From Alkalihalophilus pseudofirmus (GTDB taxonomy: Bacteria; Bacillota; Bacilli; Bacillales; Bacillaceae_D): a stretch of 64,000 bases of DNA. Below the pieces are notes generated by a model that searched no databases, was not told the DNA's origin, and was given only the letters and a program-made list of their open reading frames with translations. The stretch covers positions 3,824,001 through 3,888,000 of the forward strand of contig NZ_CP117835.1 in the NCBI RefSeq assembly GCF_029094545.1. The letters are read 5' to 3'. Position 1 is the first letter of the stretch, and the number at the start of each line of letters is the position of its first letter. The translations under genes and the position numbers were made by a program. This document shows positions 8,172 through 61,357 of this stretch, piece by piece.

Positions 8172-8358
8172 ATTGCGTCGGTTAGAGTGGTTATTTGACT
8201 AGTTGCTTGGGTAATTGTGCGGGTTCAGACTGTAATTGCGTCGGCCCGCGGTGGTATTGCGCCTATTGCTGCTAATAGCGTCAGTCTCATGCTCGATTGC
8301 GCCGGTTGACCAGACTATTGTATTGACTCCTGCTATAATTGCGCCGATTCTCCTGCCC
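8172..8358 (+). repeat. phased nine-unit array A (WWTGCGYCRSTT, 21-bp period)
   Basis: Nine units start at 8172, 8193, 8214, 8235, 8256, 8275, 8296, 8317 and 8338. The step is 21 bp except 19 bp between units 5 and 6. Five of nine units keep exact TGCG; units 2, 3, 6 and 8 are degenerate but stay in phase. The 9-bp spacers are unrelated. The array lies between the fabZ start and the stop of the NERD gene, 22 bp from that stop, with no terminator between, so it would be transcribed as the NERD gene's 3' UTR. Confidence 0.85.
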
Positions 8359-8379
8359 TCATGCCATCCCCTCTACCGT

Positions 8380-9354
8380 TTACTTCAATCCAATTCTCTC
8401 TAAGCTGTAAGAGGTCCCTTTTGTCATACCGTTTCGTTTTAGCGTAAGCTGTCTTAAGATTTTGTTTGCAATGTTTCGTGTCGGCACGCCGAGAAATCGC
8501 CTGAGCTCTTTATTTGTGATGGATTCATTAATGAGCAGACGGTAGTCGGTGAGTGCATCGACAAACGGCGTACGCGAGTGATAATTGCAGTATGCGCATA
8601 ACCAGCCTCCATATACCTTTCGCATCGGAAGCGCGTTGCAGTGAGCGCAGTGAATGCCTGTTAAAAGCTCGTTCGGATGAAGTTTAAAGTAGCTTAAAAT
8701 ATTTGGTGTGTAGGAAGTGTGCTGACTCATCAGCTGGTTAATGAGGTGTTCACAGTGCTTATCGGATAATTTTGATGGCGAGCCTTTTTGAAGAAGTTCG
8801 GAGAGGACATACGGCACTTTGGCTAGGTGGAGTATCTTTAAGCGTTGCTCACGCGTTCCGCCGCTTACTTCGATTTTAGAATTTGGATTGGCTACAAGGA
8901 TGAGTGAATAGATAGGAATATCAGGGAAAGCTTGCTGCTTCAGCCATTCTGTGAGGAACTGCTCTTGCCTTGCTACTTGCAGGATGGGGTCTGGAAATAC
9001 TTCTTCTTTTCCTTGAATGGAACGGAGCAGCTGGTTGTATTCGAGGTCAAAATGCAGCGTGCCGGATAGATTTTTCACCTCAAGAATGAGAATAAATGTT
9101 GGAGCAATGATTATAGAATCCATTTGAAAATGTTGGCCGTTCAAAGGAAGCCTTATGTCATGCAGCACGGAATATTGATCGCTGTTAAACGGGTCGAGGA
9201 AGTAATCGAGGGATTGTTCACCTTTTAAACCGGCTTGGTACTTGTACAGCTCTTCTTCTATTGCGTTCTTTTTGGAATGGTGAGGGGCTAGTCTTCTATG
9301 AAGGGCTTCAATTTGGAGCAGATGAATCGGGGTTTCGCGCTGTTTTCGGATCAT
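8380..9354 (-). CDS. NERD-domain protein with C-terminal zinc ribbon
   Basis: The N-terminal half (about residues 35-170) fits the NERD (nuclease-related) domain: GLKGEQSLDYFL, an internal Asp in QMDSIIIAP, and the ILEVKN core, which together resemble a PD-(D/E)xK nuclease active site. A zinc ribbon follows near residue 237 (C-x2-C ... C-x2-C around CAHCNALP and CAYCNYHS). DNA handling is plausible but not shown. ATG 9354 follows AGGAGG. The gene is monocistronic and uniquely flanked on both sides by nine-unit phased arrays. Confidence 0.75.
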   Translation of the reverse strand: MIRKQRETPIHLLQIEALHRRLAPHHSKKNAIEEELYKYQAGLKGEQSLDYFLDPFNSDQYSVLHDIRLPLNGQHFQMDSIIIAPTFILILEVKNLSGTLHFDLEYNQLLRSIQGKEEVFPDPILQVARQEQFLTEWLKQQAFPDIPIYSLILVANPNSKIEVSGGTREQRLKILHLAKVPYVLSELLQKGSPSKLSDKHCEHLINQLMSQHTSYTPNILSYFKLHPNELLTGIHCAHCNALPMRKVYGGWLCAYCNYHSRTPFVDALTDYRLLINESITNKELRRFLGVPTRNIANKILRQLTLKRNGMTKGTSYSLERIGLK

Positions 9355-9492
9355 ATGCCAGGCCTCCTGATTATTAGTAAAGTTAGTTATTCGACTAAGG
9401 TCGGGAAAACCCTTTATTTTGTGACAAATTTTTTTTGAGGCGGTTTGTGCGGAGGAACGGCCGGGTTGATACGAGGAATAGGTGCAGGGAGA

Positions 9493-9679
9493 ATTGCGCA
9501 GGTTCAGAGGCTTATTGCGCGGGTGTATTAGGCTATTGCGCCTGTCTATCGGGTTATTGCGTGGGTATGATTGGTAATTGCGTCAGTCGGCTGTTTATGC
9601 GTCGGTTGGAGACGGTAATGCGTCGGTATTAGATGGAATTGTATCTAGTTGAGGGATAATTGCGCCTGTTGACCTCACT
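9493..9679 (+). repeat. phased nine-unit array B
   Basis: Units start at 9493, 9514, 9535, 9556, 9577, 9596, 9617, 9638 and 9659: 21-bp steps with a single 19-bp step between units 5 and 6. Eight of nine units keep exact TGCG; unit 8 reads ATTGTATC. It lies 138 bp upstream of the NERD start and just beyond the terminator of the EpuA-like gene. Because 21 is a multiple of three, an open frame with a 7-residue pattern runs through part of it; this is not a gene. Confidence 0.9.
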
Positions 9680-9694
9680 CTAACATCAGTCCAA

Positions 9695-9722
9695 ACAAAA
9701 AAACCACCTCAAAAGGTGGTTT
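9695..9722 (-). terminator. terminator of the flhO-flhP-epuA transcript
   Basis: Stem AAACCACCT / AGGTGGTTT with a four-base loop and an A run at 9695-9700 (T run on the minus strand). It lies 8 bp past the stop of the EpuA-like gene. Confidence 0.9.
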
Positions 9723-9729
9723 TCACTCA

Positions 9730-10047
9730 CTAATTCCCTTGCATCATATCAAGAATATGGTACCAGGTTTCTGGCTTTAGGGCGTCAGATACGTCGCCGT
9801 CGCCAATCACCCCGTAGCCAATGATGATTCCAAGAAGAAGACTGCCGCCGACAAGAACGGTTACGATAATAAGACGGAGCCAAATTGGAATCAGACGGAT
9901 GCGCTCTTTTTTTGGTCCTTTTTTGCGCATACCGAAGCGTCTCTTTTTCGGTTCTTCCTCCTCACCTGCTGCAACAGGAGTTTCTTCCGCTTCTGCCTTA
10001 GCAGCTTCTTGTTCAGTTGTCGTTGGGTGTCTCTCTTGTTCAGTCAT
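9730..10047 (-). CDS. EpuA-like small membrane protein (PF11772 type)
   Basis: 105 residues: a Glu/Thr-rich N-terminus, a very basic stretch (about residues 34-50), one membrane helix (IIVTVLVGGSLLLGIIIGYGVI, about 58-79) and a short external tail ending in WYHILDMMQGN. This is the layout of the family often labelled EpuA or 'RNA polymerase subunit beta', a label without functional basis here. ATG 10047 follows GAGGAG. It is 35 bp behind flhP in a conserved position. Confidence 0.75.
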   Translation of the reverse strand: MTEQERHPTTTEQEAAKAEAEETPVAAGEEEEPKKRRFGMRKKGPKKERIRLIPIWLRLIIVTVLVGGSLLLGIIIGYGVIGDGDVSDALKPETWYHILDMMQGN

Positions 10048-10082
10048 CTTCTTCTCCTCATTTGCACAAACGCTGATTTCAA

Positions 10083-10925
10083 TTAACGGCGGATCCCGTT
10101 AATTAAACCGTTCATTTCATCTGCCATTGAAAGGGCACGTGCATTGAATTGATAGTGTCGCTGGGTATTAACTAACTCGGTCATCTCTTGGCCGATATTT
10201 ACATTTGATGTTTCTAGTGAAGATTGAATTAATCTCCCCTCATCACCTGCAACTTGCTCAAACACATCAGCTTCAGCAAATCCTAGTCCAGCAAGGTCAG
10301 GGATTTTAAACCCTGAGTCTCCTGCTGCTTCAAGTAAATGCGGCTTTAACACACGAATCAGCTGTAACTGACCTAGATCTTGGGTTGTGCCGTCATTTAA
10401 TATCGCTTCAAGCTCACCAGTTGCTGAGAGTTTAATTTCTGAGAAGTTCATCGGGAGGGTAAACCGGTTGCCTCCCCCGTCTAGTAAAAAGTCTCCTTTT
10501 GCATTCACAATTGTTAACGCATTAGGATTTTGTGGATCTTCACTTAAGTAAAAAGACCCATCGCGTGTTAGATACGAGGTAGCTTGTCCATTTTCCACAG
10601 ACTCTACTTCAAAAAAGTGATCACGTTCAGCAATCGCAAAATCAAGCTCTCGTCCTGTTTGCATAATCGCTCCCTGCTCCATCCGAAGAGCGGTCTGGGC
10701 AATCTTTGCTCCTGCACCGACGCGGATTCCGTTTGGCGTCAGCCTGCCGGTTTCATAGCGTGTGTCCGTGTTGTTATTAACCTGCTGAAATAACAGGTCT
10801 GAAAACGTTGCTTCACGGCGCTTGAAGCCTGTTGTGTTGCTGTTGGCCATGTTATGTGAGAGGGTGTCCATTTTACGCTGCAGCTGCCCCATGGTTACAG
10901 AAGCTGATATCATTGAAAGATTCAT
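10083..10925 (-). CDS. flhP: flagellar rod protein FlhP
   Basis: Flagellar basal-body rod/hook family protein (FlgF/FlgG type), exported by the flagellar type III system and assembled into the rod. The N-terminal heptad region contains the family signature ...MANSNTTGFKRREATFSDLL..., and the C-terminus has the matching helix with MTELVNTQRHYQFNARA. ATG 10925 has a GAGGATG site. It follows flhO by 28 bp, as in B. subtilis. Confidence 0.92.
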   Translation of the reverse strand: MNLSMISASVTMGQLQRKMDTLSHNMANSNTTGFKRREATFSDLLFQQVNNNTDTRYETGRLTPNGIRVGAGAKIAQTALRMEQGAIMQTGRELDFAIAERDHFFEVESVENGQATSYLTRDGSFYLSEDPQNPNALTIVNAKGDFLLDGGGNRFTLPMNFSEIKLSATGELEAILNDGTTQDLGQLQLIRVLKPHLLEAAGDSGFKIPDLAGLGFAEADVFEQVAGDEGRLIQSSLETSNVNIGQEMTELVNTQRHYQFNARALSMADEMNGLINGIRR

Positions 10926-10953
10926 CGTTTCATCCTCACTCTCTGCTCAGCCA

Positions 10954-11772
10954 TTAGCCTAACCGCCCGACTTCATTTACGGCTTTATCCAAGCTTTGAT
11001 CATAAGCTTGAAGAATACGCTGGTTCGCTTCAAAGGATCGGTATGCACTCATCATTTCCGTCATTGTCTGTGAGGCGTCAACGTTTGAACGTTCAATAAA
11101 ACCTTGCTGGAGCTGATAGTTGATCTCGGCATTTCCAATTGCAGTCGGCAGCTCACCTTCTTCTGTATAACGAAGCAGGCCGTCTCCTTCTTTCACAAGC
11201 AACATTGGGTCTTCTGCGTAAGCCAAGTTAATTTGGCCAATCACTGCACCATCTGATGACGTTATTGTACCATTTGGGTCAAGCGTGAAATTCTCATCAC
11301 CGACTTGAAGCGGCTCGCCGTTCGTGCCAAGAACATACTGCCCTTCCGTCGTTGTCAGAAATCCAGCCCCGTCTATTGTAAAGTTTCCGTTACGGCTGTA
11401 TAGGATCTCATCATTAGATTGAATCGTATAAAATAAAGCACCCGGACGCCCTGACTCGCCTTCAGGCAGTACACCTTGAAGCAGTGCAATATCGGTTGAA
11501 TTGCCTGTTTCATTGATGTCTCCTTGACGAAAGTTCGGCATGCGTTCTTGCAAATAGACACCCGTTGTCAGCTCTCCGATAATCGGTGCTTGAGCGCCTT
11601 TTGGTCCTTGCGTGTCCATTGCTTTGATCAGCATGTTTGGAAACGCACGCAGTGATGCTTGGTCGGCTTTGTATCCTGGAGTATTCGCATTGGCTAGGTT
11701 GTTGGTCAGCATTTCTTGGCGCTGTTGCTGGGCAATCATCCCTGCTGCTGCGCCGTACAATCCTCTAAGCAT
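10954..11772 (-). CDS. flhO: flagellar rod protein FlhO
   Basis: Second rod protein of the FlgF/FlgG family, partner of FlhP in the rod between MS ring and hook. It starts MLRGLYGAAAGM and contains the signature LANANTPGYKADQ, with the conserved C-terminal helix (MTEMMSAYRSFEANQRILQ). ATG 11772 with AAGGAGG six bases upstream is preferred over the longer in-frame extension to 11847, which lacks a ribosome site and family similarity. It lies about 100 bp after mbl. Confidence 0.92.
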   Translation of the reverse strand: MLRGLYGAAAGMIAQQQRQEMLTNNLANANTPGYKADQASLRAFPNMLIKAMDTQGPKGAQAPIIGELTTGVYLQERMPNFRQGDINETGNSTDIALLQGVLPEGESGRPGALFYTIQSNDEILYSRNGNFTIDGAGFLTTTEGQYVLGTNGEPLQVGDENFTLDPNGTITSSDGAVIGQINLAYAEDPMLLVKEGDGLLRYTEEGELPTAIGNAEINYQLQQGFIERSNVDASQTMTEMMSAYRSFEANQRILQAYDQSLDKAVNEVGRLG

Positions 11773-11871
11773 CGTGTTCCTCCTTGGTTCACTGTTTATA
11801 TTATTAAGCACGAAAACATGCGGCATGGATTCGTCCCTATGCCACATGTATCGGTATGTTTTAGGTTCTTG

Positions 11872-12873
11872 TTAAATTTTAACTTTCTTTGACATGCGGT
11901 CTAGGTTCTCAAGCATGATGCCTGTTCCTTTTGCCACACAATGCATTGGATCTTCTGCAACAAGCACTGGAAGCTTCAATTCTTCTGCTAGAAGCTGATC
12001 GATACCGTGGAGAAGTGCTCCGCCGCCTGTTAAGATAACCCCGCGGTCAATAATGTCTGCTGACAGCTCTGGAGGCGTTTGCTCAAGGACTTGCTTAGCA
12101 GCTTGTACAATATATGAAACTGATTCAAGCAACGCTTCCTCTATTTCCTTTGAGTGTACCGTAATTGTCTTAGGAAGTCCACTTACCATATCGCGTCCGC
12201 GAATCTCCATTTCCTCTTCACGCGCACCCGGAAATACTGTTGCGACTTGCATCTTAATGTTCTCAGCTGTACGTTCTCCGATAAGAAGTTTATACCTCTT
12301 TTTGATGTAAGTTAAGATGTCAGAATCGAATCTGTCACCAGCTACTTTGATGGAAGAGGCGGTGACGATATCACCCATTGAAAGAACAGCAACATCTGTT
12401 GTCCCACCGCCTATGTCGACTACCATGTTACCGCTTGGCTGGAAAATATCCATTCCGGCTCCGATTGCAGCAACTTTCGGTTCCTCTTCCAAATACACGT
12501 TCTTCCCGCCGCTCTTCTCAGCTGCTTCGCGAATCGCTTTTTGCTCAACGGATGTAATATTTGTCGGGCAGCAAATTAAAATGCGCGGCTTTGAAAACAT
12601 GCTTTTGACATTGATCTTGCCAAGAAAATGCTTCAGCATCGATTCTGTCATTTCAAAGTTTGCGATGACGCCGTCCTTCATTGGGCGCATGGCAACAATA
12701 TTTCCTGGTGTGCGTCCAACCATGCGGAACGCTTCTTCTCCGACAGCTAGAACTCTCTTTGACTGTGTATCGACTGCAACTACTGAGGGCTCATCTAAGA
12801 CAATACCGCTACCTTTTACATAGACTAGGACGTTCGCAGTACCTAAATCAATTCCAATATCTCTACCAAACAT
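11872..12873 (-). CDS. mbl: MreB-like actin homologue Mbl
   Basis: Bacterial actin that forms membrane-associated filaments guiding lateral wall synthesis. The actin-fold phosphate motif IGIDLGTANVLVYVKG is at the N-terminus, the second phosphate motif VDIGGGTTDVAVLS near residue 160 and the adenosine motif GVILTGGGALLHG near residue 285. 333 aa is the normal length. ATG 12873 has GGGAGG upstream. The spoIIID-mbl-flhO-flhP order identifies it as Mbl rather than MreB or MreBH. Confidence 0.94.
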   Translation of the reverse strand: MFGRDIGIDLGTANVLVYVKGSGIVLDEPSVVAVDTQSKRVLAVGEEAFRMVGRTPGNIVAMRPMKDGVIANFEMTESMLKHFLGKINVKSMFSKPRILICCPTNITSVEQKAIREAAEKSGGKNVYLEEEPKVAAIGAGMDIFQPSGNMVVDIGGGTTDVAVLSMGDIVTASSIKVAGDRFDSDILTYIKKRYKLLIGERTAENIKMQVATVFPGAREEEMEIRGRDMVSGLPKTITVHSKEIEEALLESVSYIVQAAKQVLEQTPPELSADIIDRGVILTGGGALLHGIDQLLAEELKLPVLVAEDPMHCVAKGTGIMLENLDRMSKKVKI

Positions 12874-12984
12874 GATTCTTTTTCCTCCCTGTTTTACCGA
12901 ACATGATCGTATCTACTGATTACGATATACCTAATTGTAAATTTTATCACAGATTGTTCAGACAGGGATAATAATTTCTGCAAA

Positions 12985-13272
12985 TTATTGTCGACTTTTT
13001 ACAATTTGCTGTACAGGCTCTTCTTGTGTCTTCTTGTATTTCACTTTCGTCGCTTCGCCGCCCCGAAGATGACGAATAGATTTGTGATATTCAAGAATTT
13101 CTTTTACTTCATTTGCGAGCTCTGGGTTGATCTCTGGCAAGCGTTCTGTTAAGTCTTTATGAACGGTACTTTTGGATACCCCAAACTCCTTTGCAATGGT
13201 CCGCACCGTTTTTCTCGTCTCGACGATATACTTGCCAATCTTGATCGTTCGCTCTTTGATGTAATCGTGCAC
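12985..13272 (-). CDS. spoIIID: sporulation transcription factor SpoIIID
   Basis: Small DNA-binding regulator of mother-cell genes (sigma-E and sigma-K regulons). It is nearly identical to known SpoIIID: YIKERTIKIGKYIVETRKT, then the helix-turn-helix VRTIAKEFGVSKSTVHKDL (about residues 23-42) and a basic C-terminal helix. The start is GTG 13272, with GGGAGG eight bases upstream; the open frame extends to 13344, but that part has no family similarity. It precedes mbl as in B. subtilis. Confidence 0.96.
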   Translation of the reverse strand: MHDYIKERTIKIGKYIVETRKTVRTIAKEFGVSKSTVHKDLTERLPEINPELANEVKEILEYHKSIRHLRGGEATKVKYKKTQEEPVQQIVKSRQ

Positions 13273-13449
13273 ACGTCTCGCCTCCCTAATTCTGTGTTGG
13301 TGATTGGTACAGTTTATTAGGGAGATTAAGCAGATATACCACATTTTAAAGAGGACGAGGGCTATTTTCAGACTTTTTTTACATATTTGGGTGATCGGAG
13401 AGTATTTTTCGGGGTTGCAGAGTAGTGCGGGAAGTTTTTGGCGAGGGGG

Positions 13450-13636
13450 ATTGCGCCGGTTCAGGCTCTTTATGCGTTGCTCTCGGCCGAGATTGCGCGG
13501 CTTGATGAAGTATATGCGTCGGTGTGTGCTGTTATTGCGCCGATCGGTCCTTATTGCGCCTGTCTCCTGGCTTATTGCGCCCCTCCGGCCGGCTTATGCA
13601 TCGATTGAGGCTGGAATTGCGTCACTCTCCTCGCCG
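13450..13636 (+). repeat. phased nine-unit array C
   Basis: Units start at 13450, 13471, 13492, 13513, 13534, 13553, 13574, 13595 and 13616 (steps 21x4, 19, 21x3). Eight of nine have exact TGCG; unit 8 is TATGCATCGATT. It lies upstream of spoIIID and just beyond the exonuclease terminator. Confidence 0.9.
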
Positions 13637-13678
13637 CATCACCACTGCTACAGCCGCCTAAACACCGCATCAAACAAA

Positions 13679-13702
13679 GAAACGCGGCCTCGGCCGCGTT
13701 TC
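13679..13702 (-). terminator. terminator of the symporter/exonuclease operon
   Basis: 11-bp stem GAAACGCGGCC / GGCCGCGTTTC, two-base loop (in practice a larger loop), with an A-rich stretch on the left side giving U residues in the minus-strand RNA. It lies 12 bp past the exonuclease stop. Confidence 0.85.
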
Positions 13703-13713
13703 TCCTCCTCTTA

Positions 13714-14376
13714 TTAAAACACTACACCCTTTGTTGTGGAGCTGCCGATCTCCATAAGATCAGCAAGCGTCGTCTTGCCTCGGTCTTCTAGATGACGCAT
13801 CAGCTCACAGAATAGATGGGCGGTGGTCATCGCATCTCCTAGCGCTTGATGGCGCTCATAGACGAGGGTGCCGAATTGCAGCGCGTATACCTCAAGGTCG
13901 CGCATGTCACGTGACGGGTTGAGATAGCCGATTAAATCGAGCGTATCGACGACTAGCGGGGTGTCGTATGTGTATTTATGTCGCTGCAGCTCTTTTTTGA
14001 CGACCATCATATCAAAGCTGACATAATGACCGACCCAAAGATTGCTGTCAATGTCTTCATTGAATTGAAAGAACCGCTCAAGAGCTTCGAGTGAGGACGG
14101 GGCATCTTTCACCTTTTCCCCGGAAATACCGGTCAGGCTCGTAATCTTTTCTGGGATTTCTCGATCTGGATTGACGAACGTTTGGAAGGTCTGCTCCTGA
14201 ACCTCCAAACCAGCCACCCGGACCCCGGCAATTTCAATCATCCGATCAGCCCCGTTAATGGCGAATCCTGTCGTTTCTGTATCAAATATTGTAAAGGTTA
14301 AATCACGAATATGCGTGTTTAACGGGACTTCTGATTGTAACTGGTAATTAAGCTTTTGCTTTTTCCAAAACATCAT
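13714..14376 (-). CDS. DnaQ-like 3'-5' exonuclease
   Basis: DEDDh-type exonuclease domain resembling DNA polymerase III epsilon: ExoI FTIFDTETTG (about residue 30), ExoII near GHYVSFDMMVV, ExoIII HQALGDAMTTAHL with the active-site His and Asp. About 220 aa, a stand-alone exonuclease. ATG 14376 is favoured because GTG 14385 overlaps the AGGAGG ribosome site. It is last in the symporter operon; linkage of a cNMP/CBS/DUF294 protein and such an exonuclease to VC_2705-type symporters is a recurring arrangement I know from other genomes, although the exonuclease's role there is unclear. Confidence 0.85.
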   Translation of the reverse strand: MMFWKKQKLNYQLQSEVPLNTHIRDLTFTIFDTETTGFAINGADRMIEIAGVRVAGLEVQEQTFQTFVNPDREIPEKITSLTGISGEKVKDAPSSLEALERFFQFNEDIDSNLWVGHYVSFDMMVVKKELQRHKYTYDTPLVVDTLDLIGYLNPSRDMRDLEVYALQFGTLVYERHQALGDAMTTAHLFCELMRHLEDRGKTTLADLMEIGSSTTKGVVF

Positions 14377-14410
14377 GACACACACCTCCTAGTCGTCGCG
14401 TAATGCTCAT

Positions 14411-17981: not shown

Positions 17982-18012
17982 AATGATGTCCCCCTTTTAC
18001 TCTTCTCTTTTT

Positions 18013-18512: not shown

Positions 18513-18803
18513 TTAGGCTTGGTGTGTGAGCTGTTGTGGGGTCATGATGTGGTGGCAGTTTGTGCAGCGTCTAAGAGGTGTTTTCTTTTTAGCAGATTTG
18601 AAATTCATCCAAGCTATAATTGGAATAAACGCTAGAAAAATTGGATGAACCACAAAAGTTAAGACAATAGCCACAATAAAAGGCAGGATACTGAGCATGA
18701 AAAAGTATTGCCCAGTCTGGATATAGGTGAGTGAGTCTTGATGACATTTCGTACAGTGTTCAGCATTTAGCTGTGTCACTTGCGTTTTCTTTCGTTTCGG
18801 CAT
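18513..18803 (-). CDS. small zinc-ribbon membrane protein
   Basis: 96 residues with two CxxC pairs (CTKC near residue 17 and CTNC near residue 80) around a hydrophobic central region of two membrane helices (about residues 32-68). The pairs could form one zinc site on the cytoplasmic side, with both ends inside. No known family recognised. ATG 18803 has GGGAGG upstream. It lies between the 58-aa protein and the symporter subunits, presumably on the same transcript. Confidence 0.7.
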   Translation of the reverse strand: MPKRKKTQVTQLNAEHCTKCHQDSLTYIQTGQYFFMLSILPFIVAIVLTFVVHPIFLAFIPIIAWMNFKSAKKKTPLRRCTNCHHIMTPQQLTHQA

Positions 18804-18813
18804 AGCTTCCTCC

Positions 18814-22980: not shown

Positions 22981-23167
22981 TATGCGTCGTTTGGAGCCGT
23001 TTATGTGTGGATCTCAGGCGCGATTGCGCGGGTTGCTTGAGGAATTGCGCTGCTTGAGAGAACTTATGCGTCCATTGAAAATAATTGCGCGGATTCAGCT
23101 GGTTATTGCGTGTATTGATGTAGGAATTGCGTCGAACTAAATGTTAATTGCGCCAGTTCCACCCGCA
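22981..23167 (+). repeat. phased nine-unit array D
   Basis: Units start at 22981, 23002, 23023, 23044, 23065, 23084, 23105, 23126 and 23147 (steps 21x4, 19, 21x3). Eight of nine units have exact TGCG. It lies between convergent genes: a plus-strand gene ending at 22779 and murAA, whose terminator follows at 23219. A further TGCGCC at 23169 is one base out of phase and is not counted. Confidence 0.9.
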
Positions 23168-25705: not shown

Positions 25706-26065
25706 CGTTTTAACCCCCAGTCCCAATCCTTCTCTCGTGTTACTGTAAGTAGAAATTTGTCGATTGACTTCGAAAAATAAAAGTCAAGGACAAAGCAATC
25801 CATTTTTCATCTTAACGGATTTTAACAAAAAAATCTATAGCGAATTACCATCATTTTTATAGTTGTACGGACCTATCTTTTGTCATGTTTGTCATCTAAT
25901 CCATGACTTATGACACAGCTTTATCTATACCTCCTAATCATACGATACATAGCATGGATAATATTCACATGAAATCGTGAAATAAAGTCAAATTGGTGAC
26001 GGTTTGAAGAGAAGCAAAGCTAAGAAGCTAGTGTGACATCAGTAATACGCTCAAAAAATGAACTA

Positions 26066-26151
26066 TATAAACGAAATGAACTACTTAATAAACGAAGCAA
26101 CAATTTTATAAACGAAATTTCAATTTTATTAAACAACCGGAGCAAATAATT
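26066..26151 (+). repeat. AT-rich phased repeats (ATAAACGAA, about 21-bp period)
   Basis: AAACGAA cores start at 26069, 26090 and 26110, and a diverged AAACAAC at 26131 (steps 21, 20, 21). The first two units also share AATGAACTA. The array is different in sequence from the GC-rich nine-unit arrays but similar in spacing and in position, just beyond the atp operon terminator. The rest of the 505-bp gap (25706-26210) is AT-rich, without a recognisable gene. Confidence 0.6.
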
Positions 26152-26182
26152 GGAAACAAAGCACTTCACCCACAAAAAAACA

Positions 26183-33956: not shown

Positions 33957-34143
33957 ATTGCGTCTATCCCCCCTCTTATTGCGCTGGTTGCTCTCACAAT
34001 CGCGTCGCTTCCACTTTCTTATGCCTCAGTCTCAGCCTTAATTGCGCCGATTCGACCTTATTGCGTCACTTTACACATGATATGCGCAGCTCTCAGGCAT
34101 TATTCTATCTACTTTGACATTAATTGCGCCGGTTCACACGACG
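33957..34143 (+). repeat. phased nine-unit array E
   Basis: Units start at 33957, 33978, 33999, 34020, 34041, 34060, 34081, 34102 and 34123 (steps 21x4, 19, 21x3). Six of nine have exact TGCG. Unit 8 (ATTCTATCTACT) is badly decayed yet occupies its exact slot. It lies between the atp promoter region and the terminator of the vpr-like gene. Confidence 0.88.
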
Positions 34144-38687: not shown

Positions 38688-39935
38688 TTACATTTTAAGC
38701 TCAGGGTACATAGGGAATTTAGCCGTAAGAGCTGCAACACGCTCACGAACTTCGTTAAGCTTGTCTTCGTTCTCGACATTTTTAAGTGTTAGTGCAATCA
38801 ACGCACCAATTTCATCCATTGCCTCTAAGTCTAAACCGCGTGATGTTACAGCAGCTGTTCCGATACGGATACCGCTTGTTACAAACGGGCTTTCAGGGTC
38901 AAATGGAATGGTATTTTTATTCGTTGTAATCCCTACTTCATCTAGTGCTTTTTCTGCGACTTTTCCAGTTAGGTTTAATGAACGCAAGTCAAGAAGCAGC
39001 AAGTGATTATCTGTTCCGCCTGAAACAAGGTTCACGCCTTCTGAAACAAGCTTTTCACCTAGACGTTTCGCATTTGCAATAACTGCCTCGCCGTATTGTT
39101 TGAAATCTGGAGATAGTGCTTCGCCAAACGCTACTGCTTTTGCAGAAATAACGTGCATAAGCGGTCCGCCTTGAATTCCAGGGAAGATTGATTTATCAAT
39201 CTTTTTACCGAATTCTTCTTTACAAAGGATCATTCCGCCGCGAGGTCCGCGTAATGTTTTATGTGTTGTTGTTGTTACAAAATGAGCGTGAGGAACTGGG
39301 TTTGGATGTAAGCCTGTTGCAACAAGACCTGCAATATGAGCCATATCCACCATTAGATAAGCGCCTACTTCATCAGCGATTTCACGGAATTTCTCAAAAT
39401 CAAGCTCACGAGGGTATGCACTTGCACCCGCAACGATTAATTTCGGCTTATGTTCTTTAGCTAGTTCACGTACCACATCATAATCAACACGCTGAGTTTC
39501 CTCATCAACACCGTACTCAACAAAGTTGTATTGAACACCACTGAAGTTAACAGGGCTTCCGTGCGTTAAGTGACCGCCGTGTGAAAGGTTCATACCAAGA
39601 ACTGTATCGCCTTGTTCTAAGATTGTGAAGTATACAGCCATGTTCGCTTGTGCACCTGAGTGAGGCTGCACGTTTACATATTCTGCACCAAAGATCTCTT
39701 TTGCACGATCTCGCGCGATATCTTCTACAATATCAACATACTCACAACCCCCATAATAGCGGCGGCCTGGGTAGCCTTCTGCATATTTGTTTGTTAGCAC
39801 TGAACCTTGAGCTTCCATTACAGCTTCACTAACAAAATTCTCAGATGCAATTAATTCAATTTTGTCACGTTGACGACCTAATTCTAACTTAATCGCCTCA
39901 TATACTTTTTCGTCTTGTTTCTTTAATGTCTCCAT
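38688..39935 (-). CDS. glyA: serine hydroxymethyltransferase
   Basis: PLP enzyme converting serine and tetrahydrofolate to glycine and methylene-THF. The PLP lysine is in [11 protein letters not shown] (near residue 227), with [12 protein letters not shown] and the active-site YPGRRYYGG near the N-terminus. 415 aa. ATG 39935 with a GGGG/AAGG region upstream. Confidence 0.97.
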
Positions 39936-40052
39936 CCTTATTCCCCTTTCAGTTCCTACACATTCGGTTTTTAGGTATCAAACATTAGATTCAACTACAT
40001 TCTAACATAAGAATTAACTAAAATCCGTACTATTTATCAAAAACAGGTCTGA

Positions 40053-42966: not shown

Positions 42967-43123
42967 AATTCATCCTCCTCTCATGTATTGTCGTGTGGTT
43001 TCAGTTTTTATTATTTGTTATTGTCTCTATCTTCTTCCATCTTATCACAGCTTTTTTGAAAACTGTATCACTGTTCATGACGATTGAATGAATCGTTAGA
43101 CCTAAGCATAAATATACACTCAC

Positions 43124-43666: not shown

Positions 43667-43897
43667 ACACTTCACTCCCCACACATGCTACTAAAATGTA
43701 TGCAAGTCCAAAGGATAATAGGACAATAGAAAGGCGGAAGGGTTCGGTTAGGTATGAGTCGGGTGGAGCTTTGGCAATAAGAAGCGCTTTTTGCTTCGTT
43801 TGGCAAAGTGAAGCCGACGATTACCTGAACCCTGGAGCTAGACAGAGAAAGGCGGAGGCGACTGGTTTGCGTTCGATTTACCATTTAATGTATGCAT

Positions 43898-44004
43898 TTG
43901 TTCGAAAAAAATGGGTTTTTGTTCGAATTACTTGATAGTTTATTCGAAATATCTATTAACTTGTTTAAATAATGATTATTTATGTTCATATTACACATGC
44001 TGCA
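43898..44004 (+). repeat. AT-rich phased repeats (GTTCGAA, 21-bp period)
   Basis: Cores at 43900 (GTTCGAA), 43921 (GTTCGAA), 43942 (ATTCGAA), 43963 (GTTTAAA) and 43984 (GTTCATA), each exactly 21 bp apart, the last two decayed. It sits between the ywlC terminator and mntP, so its placement parallels the GC-rich arrays. The remainder of the 466-bp gap shows only a short imperfect hairpin. Confidence 0.6.
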
Positions 44005-51939: not shown

Positions 51940-51945
51940 AGAGAA

Positions 51946-51980
51946 AAACCGCCCAAAGCGCAAAAGGCCTTGGGCGGTTT
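51946..51980. terminator. bidirectional terminator
   Basis: 11-bp stem AAACCGCCCAA / TTGGGCGGTTT with A/T runs on both sides, between the convergent chemoreceptor and lipoprotein genes. Confidence 0.92.
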
Positions 51981-51983
51981 CCA

Positions 51984-52448: not shown

Positions 52449-52514
52449 GATGAGCACCTCCTGCAGCGAATCGCTGCATTTATAGGTTGCCCACATATCT
52501 TAAGTTACTCGTTG

Positions 52515-53135: not shown

Positions 53136-53284
53136 AGTTTTCCCCCACCTTACAACAAATAATCTTTAACCTGCTTGTCTAAAGATCAATTGATCCCTTG
53201 ATCATAGCATCTCAATTTATTTAAACATTCATTTTGACATGTAATGGATTTTCAATTTCATTTTTAGATATGCCGATTGAACGG

Positions 53285-53471
53285 ATTGCGCCGGTTCAGA
53301 CGATAATTGGGTTGGTTGAAGCGCTGTATGCGCCATTTATACTCGCTTTTGCGTTAATTGACCAGCTAATTGCATCACTCTGTGCTGATTGCGCCGGTTC
53401 ACGCTATTATTGCGTCGCTTCGCAATTGTTATGCGTCTATTCCGCTCATAATTACGCCCATTCAGTCCGCG
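53285..53471 (+). repeat. phased nine-unit array F
   Basis: Units start at 53285, 53306, 53327, 53348, 53369, 53388, 53409, 53430 and 53451 (steps 21x4, 19, 21x3). Six of nine have exact TGCG; unit 9 reads ATTACGCC in phase. It lies upstream of tdk and just beyond the rpmE2 terminator. Confidence 0.9.
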
Positions 53472-53505
53472 CAAATCCCGCTTTAGCCGCACCAGGTGCA
53501 AAAAA

Positions 53506-53534
53506 AACAGGCAAGTGCAGTGCGCTTGCCTGTT
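53506..53534 (-). terminator. terminator of rpmE2
   Basis: 10-bp stem AACAGGCAAG / CTTGCCTGTT with a nine-base loop and an A run at 53500-53507, 12 bp past the stop. Confidence 0.92.
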
Positions 53535-53546
53535 CGCATATCCAGT

Positions 53547-53792
53547 TTACTTCATGTTGTATTTCTTCTTGAAACGATCAACACGTCCACCAACATCGTT
53601 AAGCTTCTGCTTACCAGTGTAGAATGGGTGCGAATCTGAACTGATCTCAACTTTTAGAAGCGGGTATGTGTTACCATCTTCCCACTCAATTGTTTCAGCA
53701 GAACCTTTAGTAGAACCGCTTAGAAACTTAAAACCAGTACTTGTATCCATGAAAACCACTTTTTGATATCCTGGGTGAATACCTTGTTTCAT
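53547..53792 (-). CDS. rpmE2: 50S ribosomal protein L31, type B
   Basis: Ribosomal protein without the zinc-binding CxxC pairs, so the zinc-independent paralogue (B. subtilis YtiA type), which usually replaces the zinc form under zinc shortage. Core features: [25 protein letters not shown], and [10 protein letters not shown] at the end. ATG 53792 is nine bases from AAGGAG; the ATG at 53801 touches it. It is in the place next to rho and tdk where B. subtilis has rpmE, and I see no clear Zur box in front of it. Confidence 0.93.
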
Positions 53793-53969
53793 TGATTTCA
53801 TCTCCTTCCGCCCTGAATCTCTTCGAAACAGAGTTATCTAATCACACATGACGAAATTATATCAAGCCAAGCCTTGTTTTGCAACTGTATTTTCGATGAT
53901 TTTATACGTTGTTACGCACGATTCTTCATAAAACCGCATCATAGCAGTTTTCTGCATCATCCATTTACA

Positions 53970-55244: not shown

Positions 55245-55355
55245 TATTCCACCACACTCTAATCATAATAAAAAGTAAGATCCTTTTTAGTAGGTTGTAG
55301 TAGTATAAGTAAAAGATCCGTACTTTTTTTCGAACTAATAAAAATACTTTGTTCT

Positions 55356-55400
55356 ATTACATTAATATAAATTACATCAATATAAATTACATCAATATAA
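55356..55400 (+). repeat. 15-bp tandem repeat x3 in the rho leader
   Basis: ATTACATTAATATAA, ATTACATCAATATAA, ATTACATCAATATAA in direct tandem (one base differs in the first). It lies 112-156 bp upstream of the rho start in an AT-rich stretch, where the promoter is expected; each unit contains a TATAAT-like hexamer on the minus strand (TTATAT). Confidence 0.85.
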
Positions 55401-55490
55401 ATACTTGTATCATTGTACCCCATTAGATCAAATATATTCAAGGAACATTTTCCTAACAAATAGTCGGTAGGAAGCGTAGAGATAAAGAAT

Positions 55491-55516
55491 GAAAGCTAGA
55501 CATGCGTCTAGCTTTC
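55491..55516 (-). terminator. terminator of murAB-glpX
   Basis: Perfect 11-bp stem GAAAGCTAGAC / GTCTAGCTTTC with an ATGC loop, 10 bp past the glpX stop. Confidence 0.88.
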
Positions 55517-55526
55517 GTCACTATGT

Positions 55527-56492
55527 TTATTTAATAACAAGGCCTGGCTTCTTCTTCATACTGTGTGTCCCATCGACAAAACGGACTGTTCCGGACTTTG
55601 CACGCATAACGAGTGATTGTGTTGTTGCACGGCTTCCCTTATAGTAAACGCCTTTTAATAACTCGCCATCAGTTACACCTGTTGCAGCAAAAATACAATC
55701 GTCCCCTTTAACGAGGTCATCCATCAAAAGGACTTTGTTAAAGTTTTCAATTCCCATCTTTCTGCAGCGTTCTTCTTCTGCTTCATTTTGCGGGAGAAGG
55801 CGGCCTTGCAATTCGCCTCCAAGGCATTTTAAGCCTACTGCAGCAAGAACTCCTTCAGGTGCTCCTCCTGAACCAATCAATAAGTCTACACCTGTATCAT
55901 CAAAGGCTGTATTAACAGCAGCTGCAACATCACCATCCGGAAGCAGTTTAATACGGGCTCCTGCTTCGCGAATCTCATGAATGATTCTCGCGTGACGTTC
56001 ACGGTTTAGAATCGTTACAACGAGATCCTCAATATCTTTATTTTTGGCACGAGCAACAGCCTTTAAGTTATCGATAATCGGAGCGTCGATATCAATTTGG
56101 CCGACAGATTCCGGTCCGACTGCAATTTTATCCATGTACATATCAGGTGCATGCAGAAGGTTGCCATGATCAGCAACCGCAAGAACAGCTAGTGCGTTCC
56201 ATTGACCTGAAGCAACGATATTTGTACCTTCAAGCGGATCGACTGCTACATCCACACGCGGGCCATAGCCATTACCAAGCTTCTCCCCGATATAGAGCAT
56301 AGGAGCCTCATCCATCTCTCCTTCCCCAATGACCACTGTTCCTTTCATTGGGATTGTATCAAATACATCTCGCATTGCTTCTGTTGCTGCACGATCCGCT
56401 TCTTCTTTATTGCCAAGACCCATCCAGCGGCCTGAAGCAAGAGCCGCGGCTTCTGTGACGCGGACCAGCTCCATTGATAAACTTCTCTCCAT
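55527..56492 (-). CDS. glpX: fructose-1,6-bisphosphatase class II
   Basis: Gluconeogenic phosphatase of the GlpX family: [26 protein letters not shown] (metal-binding Asp/Glu) and [12 protein letters not shown]. 321 aa. It starts 30 bp after murAB and ends in a terminator, so the two form an operon. Confidence 0.95.
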
Positions 56493-56522
56493 CTCTACCC
56501 TCTCCCTTATTGCATCTTCCGT

Positions 56523-57812
56523 CTAGCTTTTTACTTGATCCATCTCATCTTCTGTTAACTTTTCACGCCATAGCTTTGCTCCTAAGCCGAGCAGCTTTTT
56601 CTCGAGGTTTTCATAGCCGCGGTCTACATGTTCAAGACCTGAGAGCTCTGTTACACCTTCAGCTGTGAGGCCTGCTACAACAAGAGCAGCGCCTGCGCGA
56701 AGATCACTTGCCCGCACTTTTGCGCCTTGAAGCGGCGTTTTCCCATTAATAATGGCTGAGCGTCCTTCTACTTTTACATTAGCTCCCATTCTTCTTAACT
56801 CATCAATATGCTTAAAACGGGCATTATAAATAGTATCAGTTACAATACTTGTTCCGCTTGCTTGAGTTAAAAGAGTGGTGAATGGCTGCTGCAGGTCAGT
56901 CGGAAAACCTGGGTAAACAAGCGTTTTTATATCAACGCCTTTTTTCTCCCCTGTGTTATGGATCAAAACTTGATCATCATTCGTTTCAACCGAAACACCC
57001 ATCTCGCGCAATTTTGCGATAAGAGAATCGACATGATAAGGAATAATGTTGTCAATGATCACCTTTTGTCCGATTGCTGCTGCGAGGATCATATACGTGC
57101 CTGCCTCAATTCGATCTGGAATAATCGAATGGCGGCATCCTTTTAGAGAATCGACTCCATCAATACGAATCACATTCGTTCCTGCACCTTTAATTTTAGC
57201 GCCCATGCTCGTAAGCAATGTCGCCACATCAATGATTTCAGGCTCTTTGGCAGCATTCTCAATGATCGTCTGTCCTTTTGCCCGTACGGCTGCCAGCATA
57301 ATATTAATTGTTGCTCCGACACTGACAACATCTAAATATATCCGTGCACCGCGAAGCTCGTCAGCCCTCAGATAAATGGCTCCCTGCTCATTGGTTACAC
57401 GTGCACCAAGTGCTTCAAACCCTTTAATATGCTGGTCAATCGGACGAGGCCCAAGGTTACATCCTCCAGGCAGGCCGATTACAGCTTTGTTAAATTTACC
57501 AAGCATAGCTCCCATTAAATAATAAGAGGCACGCAGCTTCTTCACTTTGCCGTTTGGAAGCGGCATGGCAATCATATTTGACGGATCAATTTTAATCTCT
57601 TGGTCCGCAAGCGAAAGCTCCACCTCTCCACCAATTTCACGCAGTAAATCCCCTAAAAGCTGGACATCTGAAATGCCAGGTAAATTATCAATGGTAACCG
57701 GCGTATCTGCTAAAATAGCCGCCGGGATTAACGCGACTGCACTGTTTTTTGCACCACTAATCTGTACGGTACCCTCAAGCGGATGACCGCCTTCAATCAT
57801 AAGTTTTTCCAT
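56523..57812 (-). CDS. murAB: UDP-GlcNAc 1-carboxyvinyltransferase, second copy
   Basis: Paralogue of MurAA with the same EPT fold. The PEP-binding Cys is in [13 protein letters not shown] and the substrate loop [15 protein letters not shown] is present. 429 aa from ATG 57812 (GGAAGGG upstream); nine further in-frame codons upstream lack a site. Genomic place between tal and glpX matches B. subtilis murAB (murZ). Confidence 0.94.
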
Positions 57813-57968
57813 AACCGCATCCCTTCCAACCATACTCACGATTACTAGATAGACGTATAGTTACGTTTGTATCCATTATACCCAAAGATAGGAAAAAGTA
57901 ACGAAGTGAGTTGTCACATTTTAACGATTTATACCGTTTGATGTCACGAAAATCAGGCCTGTTGTGAA

Positions 57969-58607
57969 TTAGCGATTATTCCAATCTGCTAAAAACTTTT
58001 CAATTCCTTGATCTGTTAACGGATGCTTTGTCAGCTGCTTGATCACATTAAAGGGAATTGTTGCAATATGCGCACCGCGCGCTGCCGCTTCTGTTACATG
58101 GACCGGATGGCGTACAGATGCTGCAATAATTTCTGTAGGAATATTATGAACATCAAATATATCAGCAATTTGAGAAATTAAGTTTAATCCGTCGTGTCCG
58201 ATATCATCAAGTCTTCCAAGGAAAGGAGATACATACGTCGCACCTGCTCTAGCAGCAAGCAATGCTTGAACAGCAGAGAAAACAAGTGTGACATTCGTTT
58301 TAATATTAAGCTCAGAGAAAGCATGAACAGCCTTCAGACCTTCTGTTGTCATTGGAACCTTCACTGTAATATTCGGTGCGATAGCAGCAAGTTCCTTCCC
58401 TTCTTTAATCATTCCTTCTGCATCTAGTGCAATCACTTCTGCACTTACTGAATCTGATACGATATCAGTAATTTCGCGAAGACGGTCGTGAAAGTCTACT
58501 CCTTCTTTAGCAACAAGTGACGGGTTTGTAGTCACACCTGCTAAAATACCAAGCTCTTTTGCTTCACGAATATCATCTATGTTTGCAGTATCAATAAAAA
58601 ATTTCAT
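57969..58607 (-). CDS. tal: transaldolase (small MipB/TalC type)
   Basis: Transfers dihydroxyacetone units in the pentose phosphate pathway; this short class includes fructose-6-phosphate aldolases. [16 protein letters not shown] at the N-terminus, and Schiff-base Lys in ITVKVPMT (near residue 86). 212 aa. ATG 58607 is six bases from GAGGTG; the GTG/ATG codons just upstream overlap the site. Confidence 0.94.
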
Positions 58608-58788
58608 GCTCATCACCTCAAGGAAAAAGTATATGCGCTCTATGTAAACGCTATTAGAATTACTTATCTGACTTGTAATCGCTTACTGATTATAGTAAAA
58701 AAATATCGAGTGATATATCGAGTAATACAACCGTTATTAGTTTAATAAAAATTTGACAGGTTTTGACGAAATTAGTCTTTAAAATGAC

Positions 58789-58820
58789 GTTAAAAGCAGC
58801 TCAAGTGAACTGCTTTTAAC
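58789..58820 (-). terminator. terminator of fba
   Basis: Perfect 11-bp stem GTTAAAAGCAG / CTGCTTTTAAC, 10-base loop, A/T-rich flank, 15 bp past the stop. Confidence 0.85.
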
Positions 58821-58835
58821 GACTGAACCTATTTA

Positions 58836-59699
58836 TTATGCTTTGTTTGAAGAACCAAACTCACGCATTTTGCCTTGAACTGTTTCTTTAATTGCTTCAC
58901 GAGCTGGTCCTAAGAATTTACGTGGATCGTACTCGTTTGGCTTAGCAGCTAGTGTTTCACGAACCGCTTTAGCAGAAGCAATTTGGCTTTCTGTATTTAC
59001 ATTGATTTTAGCATGTCCAAATTCAATTGCTTTTTGAACATCTTTTGTTGGGATACCTGTTCCGCCGTGAAGTACAAGCGGAATACCAACTAAACCATCG
59101 ATTTCTTTCATGTGATCGAAACCAAGGTTTGGCTCACCTTTATAAGGGCCGTGTACTGAACCTAGTGCTGGTGCAAAGCAGTCAACACCTGTTGCTTCAA
59201 CTAGCTCTTTACACTCAGATGGAATCGCATATGCTGCTTCAGCATCATCAACGATTAGGTCATCTTCTTGTCCACCAATGCGGCCAAGCTCAGCTTCAAC
59301 AGAAACTCCAAGAGCATGTGCAACATCAACTACACGCTTAGTAAGCGCGATGTTTTCTTCTAGTGGATAGTGAGAGCCATCAATCATTACAGATGTGAAT
59401 CCTGCATGGATCGCCTCAACACATTTTTCAAAGCTTGAACCGTGATCTAAGTGAATCGCTACAGGAACTGTCACATTGTACTCTTCCATAAGTGATTCAA
59501 CCATTTTCACAACAGTCTTGAAGCCGCCCATGTAACGTGCAGCACCTTCTGATACACCACAGATTACTGGAGAGTTCTCTTCTTGTGCAGCTTGCAGGAT
59601 CGCTTGAGTGAACTCAAGGTTGTTTAAGTTAAATTGGCCAACAGCGTAGCCTTCCGCCTTTGCTTTATTAAGCATGTCTTTCATTGAAACTAAAGGCAT
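58836..59699 (-). CDS. fba: fructose-bisphosphate aldolase class II
   Basis: Zinc-dependent glycolytic aldolase. [13 protein letters not shown] carries the catalytic Asp and a zinc His, [13 protein letters not shown] the second His, and LHGGTGIP the third His and phosphate loop. 287 aa from ATG 59699 (AAGGAGG upstream). A cre-like AAGTAAACGCTTCCT (one mismatch) lies in the 271-bp upstream gap near 59940, of uncertain meaning. Confidence 0.95.
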
Positions 59700-59970
59700 C
59701 GTACATCCTCCTTTATGTGTGAGCATTCATAGATATCTGTGTCCGTCTAAGCGAGCATACTACACCATATCCATTATCAAGATTCCCGAATACAACAATT
59801 ACTATCCAATTGAGCATGCACCCAATCGGGTATGTATATGAGATCTTGTTTTTTCCGCTCGTTTAGTTTGAACGTGTTCATTATAGCATACTCACCAGGA
59901 ATTACACCCTTTTGCAAAGGAGAATCGACAAGTTTTTATAAGTAAACGCTTCCTTTTATATAGAACTCTT

Positions 59971-60333
59971 TTATGAGGTAACTAAGTGGTCTTTAATCAC
60001 TTTTCTCACATCATCAATATCGAATGGTTTGGCAAAATGAGTAATCGCTCCAAGCTGCATCGCTTCATTAATTAAATTCAGCTCACCGTATGCTGTCATC
60101 ATGATCACTTGTACTTCCTCATGCTTTTCTTTAATACGGCGAAGAATCTCAAGCCCGTCCATGCCAGGGATCTTCATATCAAGCAGCACTAGATCAGGTG
60201 ACTCTTCTTCTACTACTTTTAGTGCTTGCACCCCATTTGCCGCTTGGTACAATTGGTACCCATCCTTTTGAAGGATCTCACTTAATAACACACGAATGCC
60301 ATACTGATCATCTACAACTAATACTTTATGCAT
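59971..60333 (-). CDS. spo0F: sporulation response regulator Spo0F
   Basis: Single-domain receiver that passes phosphate from sporulation kinases to Spo0B. Acidic pocket D8-D9, phosphorylation site D52 in LLDMKIPG, Thr80 and Lys102 (HFAKPF); no output domain. 120 aa. Position upstream of fba and divergent from ywjG is as in B. subtilis. Confidence 0.96.
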
Positions 60334-60613
60334 ACCCTGCCTCCTTAATTGTTATGTCCTCACGTCCGGACCGCCACAATAAAAGGACTCATTCTACCCA
60401 AAATGAGTCTCTCGTTTCTCTTATCTTACAATAAGTTCGGCTGCCTGTGCCTTAATTCCTGCAAAAGAGCTAACATCTTACAAAATATTATCCGACAAGA
60501 TCCTCGAACCATGTCGATTTAAGCGTTTTGATTCAAGCTTTTTTTCTCTTTCCTCATTGATTGGGGTACGCTATAATGCACGTAGACTTTAATGAGAAAA
60601 AGGAGTAACCAAG

Positions 60614-61132
60614 ATGATCCCTATTTTCACTACTCAATTAATGGGCCGAGTTAAGGCGGTTCGTGAAAAAGAAGAAGAATTTGAAGATGCTGCCCGCCTT
60701 TTAGCGCAAGCTTTAGTTGGCGAAGGTACTATATATGTATACGGATGCCGTGAACTTCGCGGTGTTACAGCAGAAGCAGAGTACGGCACAGACCGTGATG
60801 AAAGGATTAAGCCGCTTACTCAAGATAACTTAAGCGAGCTTACACCGGCTGACCGCGTTTTACTTTTCGCCCCTTTTACAAATGACGGTGAAGCATGCCG
60901 AATGGCGACAAAGCTTCATATCCAGGGCGTTCCATTTGCCTCTGTCTCTAATTTTCATGACGAGCAAGACGCATCTTTCTCTCTAGCTGATCTTCATATT
61001 GATTTTGAAAGTGATATCGGCTTAGTCCCTGATGAAGAAGGTAACCGCAGCGGCTACCCTACTTCAATTATCGGACTTTACACGTACTTCTGTATCATGC
61101 TTACAGTTAAGGAGATTATGAGCGAGTATTAA
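60614..61132 (+). CDS. ywjG: YwjG (DUF2529) protein
   Basis: 172-aa protein of unknown function found between spo0F and pyrG in bacilli. The central part (EGTIYVYGCRELRG ... RVLLFAPFTNDGEA) looks like a SIS-type sugar-phosphate-binding fold without catalytic residues. ATG 60614 has AAGGAG eight bases upstream. Divergent from spo0F, convergent with pyrG. Confidence 0.85.
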   Translation: MIPIFTTQLMGRVKAVREKEEEFEDAARLLAQALVGEGTIYVYGCRELRGVTAEAEYGTDRDERIKPLTQDNLSELTPADRVLLFAPFTNDGEACRMATKLHIQGVPFASVSNFHDEQDASFSLADLHIDFESDIGLVPDEEGNRSGYPTSIIGLYTYFCIMLTVKEIMSEY

Positions 61133-61170
61133 AAAGGTTCGTGCCGTTAGTGGTGAGGTGCGAAGGTGCG

Positions 61171-61357
61171 ATTGCGTCAGTTGAGGCGGTTATTGCGTCG
61201 GTTCTCGGTTCGATTGCGCCGGTTCGCTCTGGGTATGCGCCGCTTCCCGCTGTTATTGCGCGGGTTGACTATTAATGCATCACTCTGGCTCGTAATTGCG
61301 TCAATTCAATTATGAATTGCGTCGCTTCAGCCGATGATTGCGCCGGTTGCACAATGA
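61171..61357 (+). repeat. phased nine-unit array G
   Basis: Units start at 61171, 61192, 61213, 61234, 61255, 61274, 61295, 61316 and 61337 (steps 21x4, 19, 21x3). Eight of nine have exact TGCG; only unit 6 (AATGCATC) differs. It is the best-preserved copy. It lies between convergent ywjG and pyrG, just beyond the pyrG terminator. Confidence 0.93.

Follow-up and report, generated by a model that had tools for sequence, protein, structure and literature searches.

What kind of element can stand at seven places between the genes of one chromosomal region, each time with the same number of short sites at the same spacing? The question is raised by a window of 64,000 nucleotides of the Alkalihalophilus pseudofirmus genome (RefSeq assembly GCF_029094545.1, contig NZ_CP117835.1, positions 3,824,001 to 3,888,000), which holds seven intergenic arrays of nine motif units, called A-type here; two of them bracket a gene for a NERD-domain protein (NERD-A). 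We propose that the arrays are probably cognate binding sites of NERD proteins, NERD-A in the case of the A-type, in a REPtron-like system that would be based on an unrelated nuclease, a reading which draws on comparison of sequences. Array type and NERD type go together, and in all four tests made the code proved private. Hence A-type arrays and NERD relatives with private codes point to an undescribed repeat system.

Below, G000 is the genome of the window (4.24 Mb; its chromosome, C1, begins at dnaA and its second contig is C2), G046 belongs to the same species, G001 is a congener (sister species), G002 a third congener and G003 a member of another genus. The arrays and the NERD gene of the window are as follows.

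8172..8358, plus strand: A-type array 1, nine units, on the 3′ side of the NERD gene
8380..9354, minus strand: NERD-A gene, 324 amino acids, proposed array-binding protein, NERD domain PF08378 at residues 42-153
9493..9679, plus strand: A-type array 2, nine units, on the 5′ side of the NERD gene
13450..13636, plus strand: A-type array 3
22981..23167, plus strand: A-type array 4
33957..34143, plus strand: A-type array 5
53285..53471, plus strand: A-type array 6, adjoining rpmE
61171..61357, plus strand: A-type array 7

Layout of the A-type arrays in the window and beyond

An earlier note, made from the letters of the window, had described these seven arrays by hand. All were verified at these coordinates, with nine units each and steps of 21, 21, 21, 21, 19, 21, 21 and 21 bp, and our recount agreed with TGCG in 49/63 units and a pyrimidine at position 7 in 63/63. 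The unit is a direct 12-bp motif at 21-bp pitch; over the 63 units, information is found in A/T at places 1-2, a TGCGY core after a T, a C in place 8 and, close to the end, a T. A rigid nine-unit profile, trained on the same seven window arrays that it scored, gave 107.6-145.8 bits at the seven starts, and the best of 20 dinucleotide-shuffled windows, both strands included, reached -49 bits against 107.6 for the lowest array. With this profile no tenth unit was found on either side of the seven arrays, and the 19-bp step fitted best at place 5.

With a sequence-only model of the seven arrays, G000 yielded 91 matches (E up to 10). Beyond the 7 loci of the window we examined 76 elsewhere in the genome, 83 in all; five further matches fall within the examined loci and three weak ones (E above 0.1) were left unexamined. 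The 76 outside loci comprise 71 plus five strong arrays (L001/L002, L003/L004, L005/L006, L007 and L008) scored for layout only and kept outside the other array counts in G000. The rigid layout was retrieved above 60 bits at 54 of the 76 loci (50/71 and 4/5), while the other 22 were partial, shifted or degenerate; one deviating locus, L084, has eight units with all steps of 21 bp. The 19-bp step was best at step 5, among nine options, in 53 of the 54 rigid-layout loci, a count that leans towards step 5 because these loci were selected by the step-5 layout. Units above 3 bits numbered nine in 13, eight in 17, seven in 14 and five or six in 6 of the 50 rigid-layout arrays. G000 thus carries about sixty scattered, precisely spaced nine-site arrays. 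They are unevenly spread: strong matches are lacking from about 2.38 to 3.33 Mb, and C2 carries no match.

With 64 candidates scored per genome, window-type matches numbered 64 in G046, 63 in G001 and 62 in G000. No window-type array was detected in G002 at E 1e-9, and a single weak match was seen there at E 0.0016. Arrays in several other genera are longer, with homogenised spacers. A scan of named genomes returned at least 120 stretches; among the first 80, which were screened, 13 carried chains, 2 of those with unrelated spacers. In viral contigs, 14 stretches fitted a five-unit pattern.

A NERD gene lies between two arrays

Arrays 1 and 2, both in the same orientation, bracket NERD-A, a flanking which the earlier note, listing both arrays, had left unremarked. 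The protein scores 75.4 bits for PF08378 (Pfam gathering score 22.1), the only Pfam domain in the gene. We aligned 20 NERD proteins picked for clean open frames from 45 loci; L351, L325, L330 and L362 were not included, the open reading frame of L351 being a repeat-encoded frame and not a NERD gene, and those of the other three being short. G45, E46, D79, K94, Q126 and C236/C239/C253/C256 are, among others, invariant in this alignment, and E92 is nearly so. We interpret the conserved residues as a putative PD-(D/E)XK core, in which we presume E46, D79, K94 and E92 to stand, followed by a zinc ribbon, with a helix-turn-helix-like C-terminus. A profile search against solved structures gave no convincing relative of NERD-A (best E 0.08).

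The gene is constrained: from G000 to G001, codon positions 1+2 diverge by 1.7% versus 12.9% at fourfold sites. Its codon positions 1+2 are faster than those of 10/10 other window genes in the comparison with G001; against G046, three of the ten were faster. NERD-A is nearly absent from mobile collections, with one weak match in 72,556 plasmid records and one weak match in phage. NERD relatives were found in 37/60 genomes; a single genome has at most ten matches, and some matches are fragments. Where NERD-A would stand by synteny, G002 has only a degenerate relative of 299 amino acids, 30% identical and without the GE motif, at about 2767-3666 of locus L303 (about 2792766-2793665 of G002:C1).

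Among the genomes compared, three or more window-type matches were present in 7/40 genomes, all seven with NERD relatives, and in 0/16 genomes without a NERD match (Fisher p 0.03, for a cut of three matches set after the counts were seen and for genomes related to each other). By blastp, the neighbours of arrays in other genera revealed no recurrent partner gene, the NERD lead being one Bacillus fonticola locus, where an array adjoins a relative of the 8380-9354 protein.

Array motifs follow the type of the neighbouring NERD gene

We then considered the flanks of NERD genes in general. The 45 NERD loci consist of 25 from a search, the second NERD gene of G000 and 19 from array- or paralogue-rich genomes, and adjacency was scored by autocorrelation, lags of 12-40 being compared over the 700 bp next to the gene and the best one taken. 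A best lag of 20-22 was obtained on at least one side in 39/45 loci (53/90 sides). In control, it was obtained in 31/199 random 700-bp windows, taken from G002 and G046, genomes that themselves hold dispersed arrays (Fisher p 3e-13 versus 53/90 sides); at the control rate, about 13 of the 45 loci would be expected by chance. The pitch of about two helical turns, to which the earlier note had drawn attention, is also seen next to NERD genes of further genera within the order.

The cores beside different NERD genes differ, as in GACCGATAGAAC, TTGGACAGTAAAA, TGTTCGAA and TTCGCGCGAA, and some of the other array families have short palindromic cores. For four motifs read beside NERD genes we looked for pairs of units 21 bp apart, tolerating 1 to 3 mismatches, so that the counts are of unit pairs and not of arrays, and palindromic cores can count on both strands. 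The motif of the G002 gene gave 112 pairs in G002 and 0 in G000 and G001; that of the G030 gene, 46 pairs in G030 and 0 in seven other genomes; that of the second G000 NERD (N2), 28 in G000, 16 in G001, 13 in G046 and 0 in G002; and that of the G069 gene, 115 pairs in G069 and 0 in seven others. Controls with the pattern written backward gave 0, save one match in G046. The motif followed the NERD type in 4/4 tests, in which 2, 7, 1 and 7 genomes respectively stood for comparison outside the lineage.

Orientation of the repeats around the gene is less uniform: same for NERD-A, inverted for N2 and for G002 NERD-B (judged by the leader), and mixed at other NERD loci, many of them one-sided, in a 6-mer test. 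Palindromic cores, as at L320, mislead this test, and for them orientation is read from the leader.

Two further array families

G000 has two array types, each flanking its own NERD gene. The second gene and an N2-type array of the window are:

C1:3811804-3812757: second NERD gene of G000
43877..43993, plus strand: N2-type array, which pairs with the second G000 NERD and consists of a TTTACCA box followed by five units, spaced at 21 bp, that resemble TGTTCGAATTA

The N2 loci read mostly show a TTTACCA-like box followed by five units. G002 is without the arrays of the window but has its own dispersed array family, which matches its own NERD; besides the relative at the place of NERD-A, G002 has another NERD, 59% identical to the second G000 NERD yet with a different core. 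In the G002 stretches analysed there were 19 leader-anchored matches (one, L388 minus, is probably spurious), with a fifth unit in 17 and a sixth in none. The leader, TTTCCATtTt.TTgctGCaT, stands before unit 1 and is absent from 57/57 A-type arrays. Unit number is thus fixed in two families, five in G002 and five plus four in the A-type.

Descent, insertion and selection

The earlier note had held the spacers to be unrelated between units and arrays and had concluded that recent copying does not account for the shared layout. The spacers are indeed nearly unrelated between arrays (mean identity 34% over 57 arrays), except that several copies share spacers at 58-76% identity with unrelated flanks. 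In these 57 arrays a separate consensus emerges for every one of the nine unit positions, for example ATTGTAT for unit 8 and TATGCG at the start of units 2 and 7. The arrays thus descend most simply, as insertions, from one nine-unit ancestor, and common descent accounts for part of the shared layout. This consensus, the similar arrays with unrelated flanks and shorter gaps in G002 all speak against a layout without copying.

These gaps can be followed since the window is syntenic with G002. At five array sites the intergenic gap is shorter there by 237, 231, 348, 214 and 225 bp, and arrays 8172 and 9493 with the diverged NERD gene between them form a single G002 interval, shorter by 460 bp in all. 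The array-side terminator is retained in G002 at sites 22981, 53285 and 61171, and the gap at the rpmE site is shorter in G003 too. Such a terminator is the following:

53506..53534, no strand assigned: intrinsic-terminator-like hairpin that separates array 6 from rpmE and is retained in G002, which has no array there

From these shorter gaps in G002 and G003, the arrays were most simply gained in the G000/G001/G046 lineage, and would be old insertions. Terminal inverted repeats are not visible in the aligned copies or empty sites, the boundaries of which are eroded.

Between G000 and G001, divergence over 34 ortholog pairs amounts to 7.1% in the motif, 18.0% in the spacers, 14.0% at fourfold sites and 11.7% in the near flanks; 34 of 49 paired loci passed the filters, and a parallel count omitted one array whose alignment coverage was low. 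Judged by this pattern, the A-type copies, taken together, are under purifying selection to keep the motif, in agreement with the selected layout suggested by the earlier note. Hypermutation of the arrays is mentioned here only in passing: window spacers diverge by 19.4% versus 8.3% at fourfold sites, but the difference is 18.0% versus 14.0% over the 34 pairs. Separately, the flanks of the window arrays from about -80 to +40 show raised divergence from both G001 and G046, which falls off beyond.

Surroundings of the arrays

Gene orientation was scored at 64/78 loci, with arrays above 20 bits and gene calls based on open reading frames. Arrays lie between convergent genes in 27, tandem genes in 32 and divergent genes in 5 cases, and the gene facing the right end of the array is on the opposite strand in 49/64. 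An intrinsic-terminator-like hairpin stands between the facing gene and the array in 33/46 convergent or minus-minus cases, versus 0/60 in shuffled controls. Irrespective of gene orientation, A-type arrays have a G-rich left and a C-rich right flank. The same border skew was observed in the G002 family and is hence common to two families with different motifs.

Two other candidates were discarded. An RNA or DNA hairpin is not favoured, since the left and right flanks and halves of an array pair no better than swapped ones. A coding repeat (ATT GCG YCR STT as a heptad) has in-frame stops in 50/1995 codons (first half, frame 0), and the 19-bp step shifts the frame.

Proposed mechanism and rival explanations

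A simple model would be as follows. NERD subunits would bind successive sites along one helix face and form a filament or cluster, in the A family with five and then four bound sites and the 19-bp joint between them. The conserved putative nuclease centre would nick or cut at or beside the array, and repair would place copies of arrays at new sites between genes, beyond gene ends. There the bound arrays would be useful, most likely as barriers or insulators, and for this reason the host would have kept the copies. These parts are not equally secure: binding of the arrays by the NERD protein is very likely, NERD-driven copying is in our estimate evenly balanced, and the host role at gene ends is possible but somewhat doubtful.

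Several observations weigh against this model. Twenty of the 45 NERD loci were hand-picked and orthologs and paralogues are among the 45; several of the 39 positive loci are weak (best match 0.45-0.51), and 6/45 are without a best lag of 20-22 (lag 40 at L319 and L333, an array about 1.4 kb off at L317, neither at L334, L364 and L366). Many NERD-bearing genomes have no array under the window model, as would be expected if motifs differ, and G029 has one array-like stretch with no NERD match at E 1e-10. In G000 the N2 matches are confined to about eight places, of which seven fall in the interval 3.72-3.87 Mb, which makes N2 the least dispersed family. As to copying, neither the aligned copies nor the empty sites, with their eroded boundaries, showed a target-site duplication. 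The pair L068/L072 (C1:39616 and C1:15960), with 76% spacer identity, is weaker evidence because both lie near a duplicated region close to the origin, and gene conversion may explain their likeness. The lasting selection on the copies is unlike the prediction for a purely selfish repeat. Finally, a single-sequence AlphaFold model of NERD-A was unusable (mean pLDDT 36.5).

In the strongest rival explanation, a real but not the favoured possibility, arrays would be occupied at gene ends in the service of host architecture or insulation, whether for nucleoid organisation, as a roadblock or as a supercoil sink; NERD would only be their binder or regulator, and one old copying would have occurred by another route. 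The scarcity of divergent sites, the terminators between array and facing gene, the selection on the motif and the many arrays with an ortholog in place in G001 all agree with it. Alone, it leaves unexplained the turnover of motif families with the NERD gene and the invariant putative nuclease residues, and the very uneven distribution, with its gap on C1 and no array on C2, fits it poorly. A wholly selfish repeat family, which NERD would mobilise without benefit to the host, appears unlikely: it would suit the divergent NERD genes, the similar copies whose flanks are unrelated and the apparent gains within one lineage, the sites being empty in G002, but the motif was kept after insertion and closely similar copies are few. 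A little less probable still is self-marking or defence, in which a NERD nuclease, held or guided by the host arrays, attacks DNA without arrays. Code turnover between congeners and a weak similarity of NERD proteins, below cutoff, to the defence proteins MAD6 and PglW recall such a role; however, no defence-gene neighbourhood appeared in a Pfam scan of 20 window proteins, and the arrays are unevenly spread.

Two last explanations seem very improbable to us. Iteron arrays and partition centromeres carry direct repeats at about two helical turns, and the multi-site arrays resemble them and par sites in this respect, as the earlier note had remarked. This resemblance stands, but only as such: an iteron, centromere or replication-control array of a plasmid-like element would not be expected in dozens of dispersed copies whose matches are all chromosomal, the partner indicated is a chromosomal NERD-domain protein hardly represented among plasmid records, and no Rep, ParR or TubR domain was detected among the 20 window proteins scanned, no genome-wide Rep/Par search having been made. 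As for a structured or regulatory RNA with nine repeats, some arrays do follow a plus-strand gene without an intervening terminator; against it, no Rfam match was obtained at the window arrays, own halves pair no better than swapped ones, and a 21-bp helical spacing is a feature of DNA.

Relation to known systems

The binding-site model has its closest parallel in REPtrons (RAYT/TnpAREP with REP/BIME). As described in PMC2817692 and PMC8266576, they also combine repeats beside a nuclease-type gene, dispersed intergenic copies, a code following the gene type and a gene rare in plasmid and phage collections. The present system differs by its NERD protein in place of an HUH/Y1 tyrosine transposase (PF08378 being the only Pfam domain), by phased arrays of double-stranded sites and not palindromic GTAG-type REP hairpins, and by flanking arrays that are not always on both sides nor always inverted. 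Since HUH transposase and palindromic repeats are both absent, we do not class NERD arrays as REPtrons; they would be a second, unrelated solution to the same plan. Miniature inverted-repeat transposable elements (MITEs) and other short interspersed elements share with them insertions of about 200 bp between genes and empty sites in a relative. In contrast to MITEs, neither terminal inverted repeats nor target duplications were seen in the A-type arrays, whose boundaries are eroded and whose internal phased sites are under selection.

As the earlier note had supposed, no described element of this plan came to light in the open-access literature searched by title or abstract start. Nor did this literature, in which most subscription papers are not included, link NERD-domain proteins to repeats. 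The function of bacterial NERD proteins had not been studied before 2022 to the knowledge of the authors of the SmdA paper (PMC9040797), and a NERD gene is also touched on in PMC12802215. As far as found in these sources, the widespread NERD domain is without a tested DNA function in bacteria (PMC9040797); it acquires here a target that can be tested and a code that can be read: in 4/4 cases a motif found next to a NERD gene foretold further sites in the same genome. The many protein-motif pairs offer material for learning how a nuclease-linked DNA-binding protein changes specificity, and the puzzling fixed layout becomes a measurable assembly problem, with 5+4 sites on one helix face and a 19-bp joint.

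On a broader view, to which we incline slightly less than to its contrary, the arrays would belong to a new class of chromosomal repeat system that spans an entire bacterial order, probably Bacillales to judge by named relatives and by sporulation genes of the window. NERDs would then be filament-forming sequence-specific nucleases, with private 20-21-bp iteron codes seeded chromosome-wide and replaced when the protein changes, so that congeners would carry different genome-wide sets of sites, and the G-rich and C-rich borders would be scars of strand-specific nicking.

Other features of the window

Four noncoding stretches of the window (18580-18684, 26006-26178, 39879-39994 and 42978-43087) also have a best autocorrelation lag of 20-22 and were matched to no array family. 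An L31-Firmicutes ribosomal protein leader lies at 53802-53833, upstream of rpmE. Five genes at 745-6641, among them those of two ABC-2 permeases and a zinc-ribbon protein, are without counterpart at the syntenic place of G002.

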